A stretch of 34,117 nt of DNA from positions 1 to 34,117 of the forward strand of contig JAEOSO010000006.1 in the NCBI GenBank assembly GCA_016840315.1. Reading direction: 5' to 3'. The translations under genes and the position numbers were made by a program. Shown here in pieces: positions 18,254 to 34,117 of the stretch. Position 1 is the first letter of the stretch. The number at the start of each line of letters is the position of its first letter. The stretch comes from Candidatus Borrarchaeota archaeon (lineage in GTDB: Archaea; Asgardarchaeota; Sifarchaeia; Borrarchaeales; Borrarchaeaceae). The notes beneath the pieces were generated by a model. The model worked only from the letters and a program-made list of their open reading frames with translations. It made no database searches and was not told the origin of the DNA.

Positions 18254-19471
18254 ATGGCAGAAACACCAGAACCATTTAAAAGACTACTCGCACTTCTCAG
18301 TGAAGTTGAAGAGATCGAATTAGAAAATTTTAAGCTTGAGGCAGAAGAATTAACTCTATCACTTACTCGCGCAATGATGCCAGCGATAATGCCTGCTATG
18401 CCGGCACCAGAAATGGCAAAACCTGGATTACCGACATTGCCAGCATTTCAGGAAGTGGAATTCAAATCTCCAGCCATAGAATACCCTGGAGAAATCGTTG
18501 AGGTACAACTTGGCGCAACAAAGTCTGAGGGTGGAACACGGGAATACGTAGTGAAACTTGGCGGTCAAAAAATCATGCCATTCTATCGCTTTCTTGGCCC
18601 AACGCCGAATCCTCCAGTAGTTTCGCTTGACGTCTTCGACATGCCTCTTAAACTTGCAAAAGCTGTTCGCTCCAACATAGAGGATGTCATGGAAGATCCA
18701 GCAGAATGGGCGAAAAGATGCATTAATAAATTCGGAGCAGATATGGTTACGATTCATTTGATCTCAACCGATCCCTATATCAAAGACACACCCGTCAAAG
18801 AGGCTGCAAAAGTTGTTGAAGATGTTCTACAAGCAGTGAAATGCCCGATAATTATTGGAGGTTCTGGAAACAAAGATAAGGATCCAGAAGTATTAACTAA
18901 GGCGGCAGAAGTTGCTGAAGGCGAGCAGGTATTGATTAATAGCGCAGATTTGCATACCTACAAGCCAGTTGTTGAAGCCGCGAAGAAGTATGGCCATATC
19001 GTACTCAGTTGGACACAACTGGACATAAACAATCAAAAAAAGCTTAATACTTTGATCATGGATGAAGGCTTCCCTAGAGAAAGAATGATTATTGATCCGA
19101 CCACGGCTTCACTAGGATACGGTTTAGAGTATACCTATTCAATTATGGAAAGAATACGCCTTGCAGCACTCAAGGGAGATGAAATACTTCAGATGCCTAT
19201 GAGTTCTGGTACTACCAACGCTTGGGGAGCTCGAGAAGCGTTTCTTAGTAATAAGAAATGTAATGAATTAGGTCTCCCATGGGGCGATGTGGCCTTAAGA
19301 GGTCCTATGTGGGAGACTCTGTCTGCTATGTCCGTGATGTTAGCTGGGGCAGATCTTCTGATGATGATGCATCCAGGCGCAGTTGCTGGCTTTAAAGCAC
19401 TTGTGAAGGCATTTACAGACGATACATCCAGAGATATGCCACCAATTGGAAACTGGGTGACAATGAAGTGA
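18254..19471 (+). CDS. cdhD: Corrinoid iron-sulfur protein small subunit (CODH/ACS delta)
   Basis: 405 aa; GGTREYVVKLGGQKIMPFYRFLGPTPNPPVVSLDVFDMP...IIGGSGNKDKDPEVLTKAAEVAEGEQVLINSADLHTYKP. Confidence 0.92.
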   Translation: MAETPEPFKRLLALLSEVEEIELENFKLEAEELTLSLTRAMMPAIMPAMPAPEMAKPGLPTLPAFQEVEFKSPAIEYPGEIVEVQLGATKSEGGTREYVVKLGGQKIMPFYRFLGPTPNPPVVSLDVFDMPLKLAKAVRSNIEDVMEDPAEWAKRCINKFGADMVTIHLISTDPYIKDTPVKEAAKVVEDVLQAVKCPIIIGGSGNKDKDPEVLTKAAEVAEGEQVLINSADLHTYKPVVEAAKKYGHIVLSWTQLDINNQKKLNTLIMDEGFPRERMIIDPTTASLGYGLEYTYSIMERIRLAALKGDEILQMPMSSGTTNAWGAREAFLSNKKCNELGLPWGDVALRGPMWETLSAMSVMLAGADLLMMMHPGAVAGFKALVKAFTDDTSRDMPPIGNWVTMK

Positions 19472-19479
19472 GGGGTCAA

Positions 19480-19744
19480 TTACCCCACCCTAAAGGGACG
19501 GGGCTTGTTTCGTGAGGAGCAAGAGTAATTAGTTGATTAGCCTAAGAGAGGTCAGGTATATGACGATATCTACGTTATCAGCAGAGTTAAAGAACACACC
19601 AAGGGATGCTTCTCTAGTCCCTTGCTCTGTAAATGGTGGTTTAAACAGAGAGGAAACTCTCAGTGATCATCATAGAGTACTGACTGATAACTTTGGCGAA
19701 GAGAACCTACCTACTTTAAAGCGATTTAAAGGAGGCGATAGGAC
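19480..19744 (+). ncRNA. IscB omega-RNA / HEARO RNA
   Basis: Located directly 5' of iscB; CCCC-a-CCC-TAAA-GGG-ac-GGGG hairpin; CAAGGGA(19600-19606)/TCCCTTG(19618-19624); GAGAG-GAAA-CTCTC(19648-19661); SD aaaggaggcgat before iscB. Confidence 0.75.
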
Positions 19745-20950
19745 TTGAGAGTACCTATCTATGTGTTAAACATGAGAGAGCAACCTCTCATGCCTACCAC
19801 GCAACGCACAGGAAAGAAGTTATTACACGAAGGAAAGGCAAAAGTTGTTCAGAGATGTCCTTTTACCATTCAGTTGAACTATGCCACTGGAGAAACTAAG
19901 CAACCGATTAAACTCGGAGTGGATATAGGATATACGAACATTGGATTTAGTGCCAAGACTGATAAGTTAGAGGTCATCAGCGGGACGCTGGCCTTACGCA
20001 AGGACGTCTCTAAAAAGATAGAAGAAAGATGGATGTATCGTAGAACTCGTAGAGGCAGATTAGGGTATCGACCTCCTAGATTTAATAACCGAACTTGCCC
20101 TGAAGGATGGTTAGCCCCTAGTACTCAGCACAGGTTAGATTCTCATATTCGATTAGTCAACAATAAACTTAAAACGCTACTACCGATAACCTACAAAAAG
20201 GTAGAAGTAGCCAATTTCGACGCTCAAAAAATACAGAACCCAGAAATTAAAGGAGTAGAATATCAGCGAGGCACACTTCAGGGCTACGAAGTGAGAGAGT
20301 ATCTGTTAGACAAGTGGGGACGTAAATGTGCCTATTGTGGTAAAACAAACGTCCCTTTAGAAGTAGAGCATATTATACCTAAAAGTAGAGGTGGAACGAA
20401 CAGAGTGTCTAATTTGACATTAGCATGTAAAAAATGTAATTTAAAGAAAGGAGAAAAGACAGCAGAAGAGTTTGGTTATCCTACCATCCAGCAACAGGCA
20501 AAGAAATCACTTAGAGCACCTACCTGTATAAATAGCATTCGTTGGAGGATAGTGGAGCAATTAGCAGCAGAGCATACTTACGGATACGTCACCAAATACG
20601 AGCGTAACAAATTAGGGTTGGAAAAGTCGCATATCAACGATGCGTTTGTCATTGCTGGAGGAACGAATCAAGAACGATGCCGAGCGTATGAAGTTATTCA
20701 AGTGAGGCGTAATAATCGTTCTTTGCAGAAGAATAGAAAAGGGTTTAAGCCGTCTGTTAGGAGACAGCGATACGAATTACAACCTTATGACCTTGTAAAA
20801 TATAACAATAGAACGTATAGAGTAAAGGGAGTTCATTGTCTTGGAAAACGGGTTATTTTAAAAAATGTTAATGGAAAAGACAAAAGTGTAGCTATCAAAA
20901 AAGTGGAGTTGATTAAATATGGAAAAGGGTTATTATTCAACTTATGTTAG
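19745..20950 (+). CDS. iscB: IscB RNA-guided nuclease (RuvC + HNH)
   Basis: PLMP motif (EQPLMPTTQRTGKKLL), RuvC-I LGVDIGYTNIGFSA, bridge-like RRTRRGRLGYRPPRFNNR, HNH CAYCGKTNVPLEVEHIIPKSRGGTNRVSNLTLACKKCNLKKG, RuvC-III SHINDAFVIAGG. TTG start. Confidence 0.92.
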   Translation: MRVPIYVLNMREQPLMPTTQRTGKKLLHEGKAKVVQRCPFTIQLNYATGETKQPIKLGVDIGYTNIGFSAKTDKLEVISGTLALRKDVSKKIEERWMYRRTRRGRLGYRPPRFNNRTCPEGWLAPSTQHRLDSHIRLVNNKLKTLLPITYKKVEVANFDAQKIQNPEIKGVEYQRGTLQGYEVREYLLDKWGRKCAYCGKTNVPLEVEHIIPKSRGGTNRVSNLTLACKKCNLKKGEKTAEEFGYPTIQQQAKKSLRAPTCINSIRWRIVEQLAAEHTYGYVTKYERNKLGLEKSHINDAFVIAGGTNQERCRAYEVIQVRRNNRSLQKNRKGFKPSVRRQRYELQPYDLVKYNNRTYRVKGVHCLGKRVILKNVNGKDKSVAIKKVELIKYGKGLLFNLC

Positions 20951-21007
20951 CTTCTACGCCTCTTTCCTCTCCACCTTAAAAGGAAGGAGTCTCCAGAGGC
21001 GATTTCA

Positions 21008-22420
21008 ATGAGCAAAAGATTGAAACCTTTAGATATTTTCAAATATCTACCGAAAACAAACTGCAAGATTTGTGGCGAAGAAACATGCATGGCGTTCGCC
21101 ATGAAACTAATTGAACGAGAAACCGAACTAGCTTTGTGCACTCCTCTTTTCGATGAATCGAAATACCAAGAAAACAAAGATACTTTAATTGTGATGTTGC
21201 GACCACCAGTTCAACCAGTTAAAATTGGTACTGGTGAAAAATCGGTTATTGTTGGTGGTGAGGAAGTAGTATATAGACACGAGTTAACCTTTTACAACGA
21301 AACAAGGATTTTTATTGATGTACACGATGAAATGGACTCAAAGGAACTGACTGAACGTGTAAATTTTGTAGACGAATATACTGTATTCAGAATTGGTGTG
21401 CACCTTAAACTCAATGGAATTGCAGTGCGATCTGTTTCAAATGATCCTGCTAAATTTGCAAAAACTGTTGAAGAAATCCTCAAACTAGCAGATTTGCCTC
21501 TTGTCCTGTGTACGTTTGATCCTAAAATAATGAAAGCGGGTCTAGATGCCGCAAAGGGTAAGCGGCCTCTCATCTATGCAGCAACAGTTACAAATTGGGA
21601 AGATATTGCGAAACTAGCGATGGAGTATAATTGTCCTGTTGCAGTCTTTTCGACCGATCTAACAACATTGAATTCCATAGCAATTACACTTCAAAAAGCA
21701 GGAATTGACGAACTCGTACTCGATCCTGGCACTTACTTCGGTGAAAATATTGGGGCTACATTAAATAATTACACCCTGCTCAGAGTAGCTGCAATTGAAG
21801 CAGGTGCAGAAAGCGTTGGATTTCCATTAATGGGAGTCCCAGCTACAGTTTACTTAGAAGGTGATAAAGGTACTGAATCTGCATGGAATGAAACAATTGT
21901 TGGATCAATGTTGATTGATCGATTCGCAAGCATGTTGATTGTTCACAATGTGGAGCTTTGGTCACTGTTAGCGTTATTAACCTTGCGACAGACGATTTAC
22001 ACTGATCCGCGAATTCATCCCGCCGTGGACGCTGGTCTAATCAAAATTGGAAATCCAGGCGTGGACTCACCAGTGTTCCTTACAACAAACTTTGCCTTGA
22101 CATTCTACACTGTAAAAACAGATCTTGAGCAGGCAGCTATAGATAGTTGGTTATTAACCGTGGATACTGAAGGTATTGGTGTAGAAAGTGCAGTAGCTGG
22201 CGGACAACTCAATGCAGGCGCAGTAGCAGATTTGATTAAGGAGACGGGTCTTGAAGAGAAAGTGAAGCATAGAAAACTTATCATTCCCGGTATGGCCGCT
22301 CGTATCAGTGGAGAGACAGAAGATAGTACCGGGGGTTGGCAGATTTTGGTAGGACCGCGCGATTCATCTGCGATTCCCAAGTTTTTAAAACAGAACTGGG
22401 AAGCTGAGGCTACCGCCTAA
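21008..22420 (+). CDS. cdhE: Corrinoid iron-sulfur protein large subunit (CODH/ACS gamma)
   Basis: 470 aa; PLDIFKYLPKTNCKICGEETCMAFAMKLIERE, LADLPLVLCTFDPKIMKAGLD, FFLTTNFALTFYTVKTDLE-like region. Confidence 0.92.
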   Translation: MSKRLKPLDIFKYLPKTNCKICGEETCMAFAMKLIERETELALCTPLFDESKYQENKDTLIVMLRPPVQPVKIGTGEKSVIVGGEEVVYRHELTFYNETRIFIDVHDEMDSKELTERVNFVDEYTVFRIGVHLKLNGIAVRSVSNDPAKFAKTVEEILKLADLPLVLCTFDPKIMKAGLDAAKGKRPLIYAATVTNWEDIAKLAMEYNCPVAVFSTDLTTLNSIAITLQKAGIDELVLDPGTYFGENIGATLNNYTLLRVAAIEAGAESVGFPLMGVPATVYLEGDKGTESAWNETIVGSMLIDRFASMLIVHNVELWSLLALLTLRQTIYTDPRIHPAVDAGLIKIGNPGVDSPVFLTTNFALTFYTVKTDLEQAAIDSWLLTVDTEGIGVESAVAGGQLNAGAVADLIKETGLEEKVKHRKLIIPGMAARISGETEDSTGGWQILVGPRDSSAIPKFLKQNWEAEATA

Positions 22421-33777: not shown

Positions 33778-34117
33778 TTGAAATGTCTCTGGAGACTCCT
33801 TCCTTTTAAGGTGGAGAAGAAAGAGGCATTTAGACTAACATAAGTTGAATAATAACCCTTTTCCATATTTTACCAACTCCACGTTTTTAATGGCGACACT
33901 TGGATTTTTTCCTTTAGGATTTTCCAACACAACCCGTTTTCCGTAGCAATGGACGCCTTTTACTCTATATGTTCTATTATTATACTTGACCAGGTCATAA
34001 GGTTGCAACTGGTATTTCTGTCTCCTAATAGATGGTTTGAATCCTTTTCTGTTCTTCTGTAGCGAACGATTATTGCGTCTCACTTGAATCACCTCATAAG
34101 GTCTGCAGCGTTCTTGG
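33778..34117 (-). mobile_element. Second IscB element, right-end portion (continues past the window edge)
   Basis: Minus strand ends with ...CTCCACCTTAAAAGGAAGGAGTCTCCAGAGACATTTCAA, matching the right end of the 19480-21008 element. Confidence 0.8.
33835..34117 (-). CDS. iscB: IscB C-terminal part (truncated by window edge)
   Basis: QERCRPYEVIQVRRNNRSLQKNRKGFKPSIRRQKYQLQPYDLVKYNNRTYRVKGVHCYGKRVVLENPKGKNPSVAIKNVELVKYGKGLLFNLC, near-identical to the first IscB C-terminus. Reading continues upstream of the GTG used in the ORF track. Confidence 0.9.
   Translation of the reverse strand, partial: QERCRPYEVIQVRRNNRSLQKNRKGFKPSIRRQKYQLQPYDLVKYNNRTYRVKGVHCYGKRVVLENPKGKNPSVAIKNVELVKYGKGLLFNLC

Follow-up and report, generated by a model that had tools for sequence, protein, structure and literature searches.

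An IscB/HEARO element directly upstream of cdhE in a Borrarchaeota archaeon, with a right end that may resupply a Shine-Dalgarno sequence

How can a mobile element come to rest directly in front of a start codon and leave the gene downstream translatable? The question is raised by a 34,117-nucleotide stretch of Candidatus Borrarchaeota archaeon (contig JAEOSO010000006.1 of assembly GCA_016840315.1, positions 1 to 34,117; hereafter the window), in which cdhC, cdhD and cdhE, identified from open reading frames (ORFs) and Pfam matches, lie consecutively and an IscB/HEARO element separates the last two. The host genome of this Asgard archaeon (G000; 1.70 Mb in 181 contigs, 76.7% complete) was compared with three further genomes of the same genus (G001, G002 and G003). 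Our results place the insertion point of such elements immediately 5' of the motif RTGA, show that they recur at translation starts, and suggest that the right end probably resupplies cdhE with a Shine-Dalgarno (SD) sequence.

Boundaries, target and empty sites

The element has the hallmarks of the IscB/HEARO (OMEGA) class: a HEARO RNA 5' of the nuclease gene, a protein with RRXRR and HNH domains, a right junction with a fixed short motif, RTGA, and empty sites that are clean and reveal no target duplication. Its left end, GTCAA[TC][TC]ACCCC, is invariant in all 14 readable left ends of the host genome, the bases before it vary, and the Rfam HEARO model starts at the same GTCAA. On the right, nearly all copies of the subfamilies that we label A and B are followed by ATGA or GTGA. 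Empty homologues join the base that precedes GTCAA directly to RTGA, with no loss and no duplication, as in gtattag/ATGAATC (L066/L149), gttttctagaag/GTGAAAAC (L008/L165) and cccagaag/GTGAACTTAATG (L083); the left flanks of L066, L008 and L083 join cleanly to their empty homologues, as do, at greater divergence, those of L063 and L012. The element therefore inserts immediately 5' of RTGA without duplication, TCAA is element sequence and not target, and the copy at cdhE spans 19475-21007.

An earlier, sequence-only reading of this DNA had placed the left boundary after TCAA, expected the rejoined flanks to restore the junction GAGGGGTCAATGAGC, and proposed looking for that junction in relatives. 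The invariant GTCAA of all copies, together with the empty sites, rules this boundary out, and GAGGGGTCAATGAGC is absent from all three same-genus orthologous sites. G001, G002 and G003 instead read TGAGGGATGAANAATGAGC, that is GTGAGGG/ATGAANA/ATGAGC with the first base variable, so the junction as literally predicted has to be given up. The same reading was right that cdhD reaches its TGA stop before the element, that an IscB element, seen here to hold an intact HEARO RNA and an IscB ORF, lies between cdhD and the cdhE ATG, and that AGAGG stands about 8 nt before that ATG (Table 1).

The filled allele also differs from the empty sites at the junction itself. Its left flank is TGAGGG and its right flank ATGAGC, and seven nucleotides, ATGAACA, which lie between two copies of ATGA, are absent. 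The clean left edge fits an insertion before the first ATGA combined with a 7-nt deletion between the ATGA repeats, either before or after the insertion; alternatively, the second ATGA may have been the insertion site, the loss then being on the left side. The cdhE start codon coincides with the start of its orthologues in all three same-genus genomes, and the reading frame, 470 aa long, is intact. With the seven nucleotides present, the SD of the element would lie 15 nt from this ATG, as against 8 nt now. A second change is found at cofE (L010), where the filled site reads ATGAATGAATTGG and G001 reads GATGAATTGG, a gain of 4 nt that leaves the junction ATG in frame. That the changes at cdhE (-7) and cofE (+4) each turn the junction ATG into the in-frame start is suggestive only, with two cases.

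Insertions at translation starts

Is the position at cdhE an accident? One rule was applied to insertions and null alike: a start codon 0-13 nt from the R of RTGA, a minimum ORF length of 100 codons and, for sites with a left flank, an in-frame stop no more than about 20 codons upstream. By this rule 19 of the 39 RTGA insertions in the genus lie at translation starts, against 12-16% in a null drawn from 400 kb of G001 and limited to RTGA sites at which an insertion would leave every gene unbroken, with genes called by a home-made caller on this one sister genome. The excess holds for ATGA (13/25 versus 12.2%, P 1.7e-6) and for GTGA (6/14 versus 16.1%, P 0.016), and by class the start-adjacent insertions number 7/12 for A, 6/8 for B, 1/1 for E and 5/8 for omega-RNA-only elements (D). 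RTGA begins many genes (as ATGA) and forms the 3' half of SD sequences (as GTGA), and insertions would for this reason often fall into translation initiation regions. Where homologues allow a comparison, the ATGA targeted at L057, L066, L067 and L014 proves to be the native start codon, and GTGA lies within or beside the native SD at L008 and L083, where the insertion can split that SD (agaag/GTGA) and the right end gives a new 5' half, GGGAG.

The proteins encoded downstream mostly belong to recognised families, many of them housekeeping: F420 ligase, tRNA-guanine transglycosylase (TGT), Asn synthase, malic enzyme, threonyl-tRNA synthetase (ThrRS), adenosine-specific kinase, FKBP and HEPN. 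Outside the genus, 43 IscB elements of archaea and bacteria include 22 at starts, a count that may be biased upward since the right ends were read by eye; with right ends common to at least two copies only, it is 11 of 22.

Two further kinds of junction were seen. At L055, before a mazG-like gene of G002, the element end is fused to the start codon and the native leader beside it is unrecognisable against the G000 homologue, so the GAGG of the element may be the sole SD remaining. At L002, L054 and L125 the insertion falls on the stop codon of the upstream gene (R/TGA), and the left end gives an in-frame stop within a few codons (G TCA ATT ACC CCA CCC TAA); a stop within 8 codons is found in that frame in 48 of 64 left ends, compared with 10 and 31 in the other two frames.

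A Shine-Dalgarno motif in the right end

Native leaders in G001 show a GAGG peak 7-8 nt before starts; since SDs at 2-14 nt are rewarded by the gene caller, a peak as such is in part expected by construction, though not its position. The right ends match it, with GAGG at 8 nt in A copies and at 7-8 nt in omega-RNA-only and E copies, and B copies have GGAG 2 nt upstream of GTGA and the start 0-11 nt further on. SD-like motifs occur in distinct right ends, AGAGGCGATTTCA/ATGA, TTGAGGTGATCTT/ATGA and GCGGGAGTC/GTGA, and beyond the genus in Chloroflexota (GGAGGTTTTTTCG/ATGA), in Cyanobacteria (AGAGGTTTAC/GTGA) and in Methanoperedens-type archaea (CACGGAGNNTT/ATGA), where the element lies at starts in 4/4 distinct loci and a wider pattern count yielded no additional ones. 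No SD-like motif was found in the right ends of Firmicutes and Methanosarcina IscB elements, read by eye. The SD is thus a trait of certain lineages and not common to all IscB elements.

We propose that an IscB/HEARO element of IS200/IS605-like type entered the cdhE initiation region directly 5' of an ATGA and left no target duplication. The left flank would now serve as the guide of the omega RNA (the stretch in question is identical to the G002 empty site) and ATGA as the target or target-adjacent motif (TAM). The right end carries an SD at the lineage-native spacing, so that the downstream gene could still be initiated, and the 7-nt difference would make the cdhE start coincide with the junction ATG, at 8 nt from that SD. 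Judging from these sequences, ribosomes may well use the right-end SD, and the survival of such insertions may depend on it.

In A, omega-RNA-only and E ends, GAGG doubles as one arm of the end hairpin, which allows the two arms to be compared. Start-adjacent copies keep GAGG in 13 of 14 cases and its partner CCTC in 8 of 14, and the five copies in which the arms disagree all favour the SD (sign test, one-sided about 0.03 and two-sided about 0.06), although L100, one of the five, may have lacked CCTC from the outset. In the other copies GAGG is kept in 6/8 and the partner in 7/8; SD retention in start-adjacent versus other copies, taken alone, differs little. The better survival of the SD arm would speak for selection on the SD, a small-sample trend that we regard as suggestive.

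The small number of discordant copies weighs against resupply, as do several other observations. In the cdhE copy AGAGG belongs to a 7-bp stem, as part of its 3' arm; the predicted fold leaves GAGG 0-7% unpaired, and it is still largely paired with the 5' arm masked in silico. An end hairpin is needed for transposition in IS605-like elements, and this need alone could explain the conservation of AGAGGCG. By the rule above, neither micro-elements (0/7) nor C-type ATGA copies (0/3) are found at starts, though most bear SD-like ends, Firmicutes IscB elements sit at start codons without an SD, and the null depends on a single gene caller and genome. The claim of the sequence-only reading that the right end supplies a replacement SD thus gains from the native spacing, the recurrence at starts, the other SD-like ends and the arm asymmetry, and loses by the almost complete pairing of the SD and by the Firmicutes. 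On balance, resupply of an SD by the right end is the best-supported reading and a probable one, supported in kind.

A refinement of this reading, compatible with it, would meet the difficulty of the paired SD. Ribosomes finishing iscB at its stop (20948-20950), which is followed by the stem after 6 nt, could open the hairpin and expose the SD, and cdhE would then depend on translation of iscB. This is possible, if rather doubtful. In several distant families (L252, L257-L260, L270) the end of iscB overlaps the downstream start as ATGA, and an iscB that ends on the target TGA with an overlapping ATG has the usual layout of translational coupling; masking the 5' arm, however, frees the SD only partly, and omega-RNA-only elements, which have no ORF, are still found at starts. 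An iscB without its own stop, ending on the target TGA and often overlapping the downstream start, was seen at L246, L247, L251-L253, L257-L260, L270, L282 and L288.

Alternatively, AGAGG could be the mere 3' arm of a hairpin recognised by a transposase, its likeness to an SD coincidental, with nothing behind the start bias but the RTGA target and purifying selection against intragenic insertions. The folding of the right end as a hairpin in both RNA and DNA, the sequestered SD and the Firmicutes insertions would all suit this explanation. We nevertheless think it unlikely: the null was already limited to sites that break no gene, unrelated right ends put SD-like motifs at the native spacing, the SD arm outlasts its partner in start-adjacent copies, and 8/8 copies of subfamily B retain a GGAG that is not part of the stem, followed by two variable bases. 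That the insertion damages or silences cdhE, as a recent, mildly harmful allele with cdhE hardly expressed or read from a promoter inside the element, would agree with the sequestered SD and with an allele known from a single metagenome-assembled genome (MAG), but is improbable given the intact cdhE frame and the equivalent insertions before many housekeeping genes.

Does the proposed resupply of an SD at cdhE reflect something more general? We suggest, tentatively and with less confidence than for cdhE itself, that the IscB class exploits initiation signals: its RTGA target would admit start codons and SDs, and right ends would have evolved, separately in several lineages, a host-spaced SD or an iscB stop supplied by the target; translation of the downstream gene would then persist, perhaps coupled to iscB, and retention of the element would be tied to an essential gene. 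If true, this would explain how an RNA-guided element of the kind ancestral to Cas9 can occupy sites before essential genes of a coding-dense genome and not be lethal to its host, and would tie the short target motif of IscB to translation signals. Testable predictions would follow for gene expression, for how right ends evolve and for the reasons why targets differ between IscB families (RTGA versus ATAAA).

Known relatives, anatomy and smaller forms

HEARO elements were reportedly described by Weinberg et al. in 2009 as targeting ATGA or GTGA. An end like that of IS200/IS605 elements, mobilised by the Y1 transposase TnpA (TnpA_Y1), is apparent here in the subterminal hairpins and the short fixed motif at the cleavage point. 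No TnpA was found in the incomplete host MAG, and none associated with these element ends in the genus; a TnpA locus in G001 lies beside a TnpB-like ORF, with the GTCAA left-end motif absent from the stretch examined. In a Heimdallarchaeota element (L238), a Y1-transposase-like ORF that starts ATGAAGTATGAACC directly follows iscB and, read from the sequence, is apparently broken by a frameshift or stop.

Earlier work had established IscB/HEARO elements together with their omega RNA and short TAMs (PMC9755519, PMC13180657). Like IscB/ISC elements with RF02033, those described here have a 5' HEARO RNA, an IscB with RRXRR and HNH, no target duplication and a short target at the right end; unlike the described ones, they show a right-end SD at native spacing and a strong bias to translation starts. 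Neither this bias nor an SD-bearing right end is described in the searchable literature, which leaves out most subscription papers, and both look new relative to known IscB/HEARO elements. IStrons likewise limit damage to host genes; they do so by RNA splicing (PMC4227781), whereas the means proposed here is the resupply of an initiation signal. Free-standing IS605 stem-loops of Borrelia likewise place IS605-type end hairpins at gene borders, near lipoprotein genes, but at gene 3' ends, and the part of the description available to us makes no link to an SD or start codon (PMC2775950).

Within IscB, the motifs GVDIG and HINDAF are those that we take to be RuvC. Altogether the host genome holds 27 matches to the element and 36 HEARO matches.

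Table 1. Features of the cdhD-cdhE region and of the second element copy in the window
Feature	Coordinates	Strand	Evidence
cdhD, carbon monoxide dehydrogenase/acetyl-CoA synthase (CODH/ACS) delta subunit, gene upstream of the element	18254..19471	+	ORF; Pfam CdhD 240.7 bits; stop TGA 19469-19471
Presumed omega-RNA guide segment (left flank, cdhD 3' end)	19455..19474	+	IscB biology
GAGGG, SD-like motif native to the ancestral cdhE leader and today on the element's left side	19470..19474	+	same GAGGG in G001-G003 empty sites
Complete IscB/HEARO element, 1533 nt, ends GTCAATTACCCC ... GGCGATTTCA	19475..21007	+	invariant left end, variable flanks, empty sites
HEARO / omega RNA, intact	19475..19710	+	Rfam RF02033, 138.8 bits (gathering 83), E 2.5e-30
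iscB, 401 aa, without internal stop, RRXRR + HNH	19745..20950	+	ORF; PF14239 190 bits; HNH families; protein alignment
Right-end hairpin: arms CGCCTCT 20957-20963 and AGAGGCG 20995-21001, inner hairpin	20957..21001	+	RNA fold; DNA fold of the opposite strand
AGAGG, proposed SD of cdhE; GAGG ends 8 nt before ATG	20995..20999	+	sequence; native spacing mode 7-8 nt
ATGA, target / presumed TAM, doubling as cdhE start codon	21008..21011	+	RTGA after right end in nearly all A/B copies
cdhE, CODH/ACS gamma subunit	21008..22420	+	ORF; Pfam CdhD + FeS; start as in relatives
Second copy, cut by the contig end; right end AGAGACATTTCA/ATGA; GAGG mutated to GAGA; not at a gene start	33779..34116	-	sequence match

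Smaller and divergent forms accompany the complete elements. Omega-RNA-only elements of about 360-410 nt, with no iscB (L115-L123 and L133 in G001, L077 in G003, and L214), end in ...CTTGAGGTAATNATT/ATGA, and several lie directly 5' of starts (HEPN, FKBP and adenosine-specific kinase genes). Micro-elements of ~37-57 nt (L080, L124-L130, L203) combine a left-end hairpin with a right-end tail, for example GTCAATTACCCCACCCTAAAGGGTAGGGGCTTCCAGAGGCGGGAGTC/GTGA, and are possibly the smallest mobile forms. C-type copies (L004, L059, L072, L082 and others) carry a related iscB subfamily and have ATAAA in place of RTGA on the right; IscB proteins of about 80% identity thus seem to be paired with two distinct targets. 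Reported IscB TAMs include NTAAA for OrufIscB and, as the preferred motif, NWRGNA for OgeuIscB (PMC13180657). The first is matched by the ATAAA of the C-type copies in this genus, and the A and B copies differ from the TAMs of the editing literature in an RTGA that coincides with start codons or SDs.

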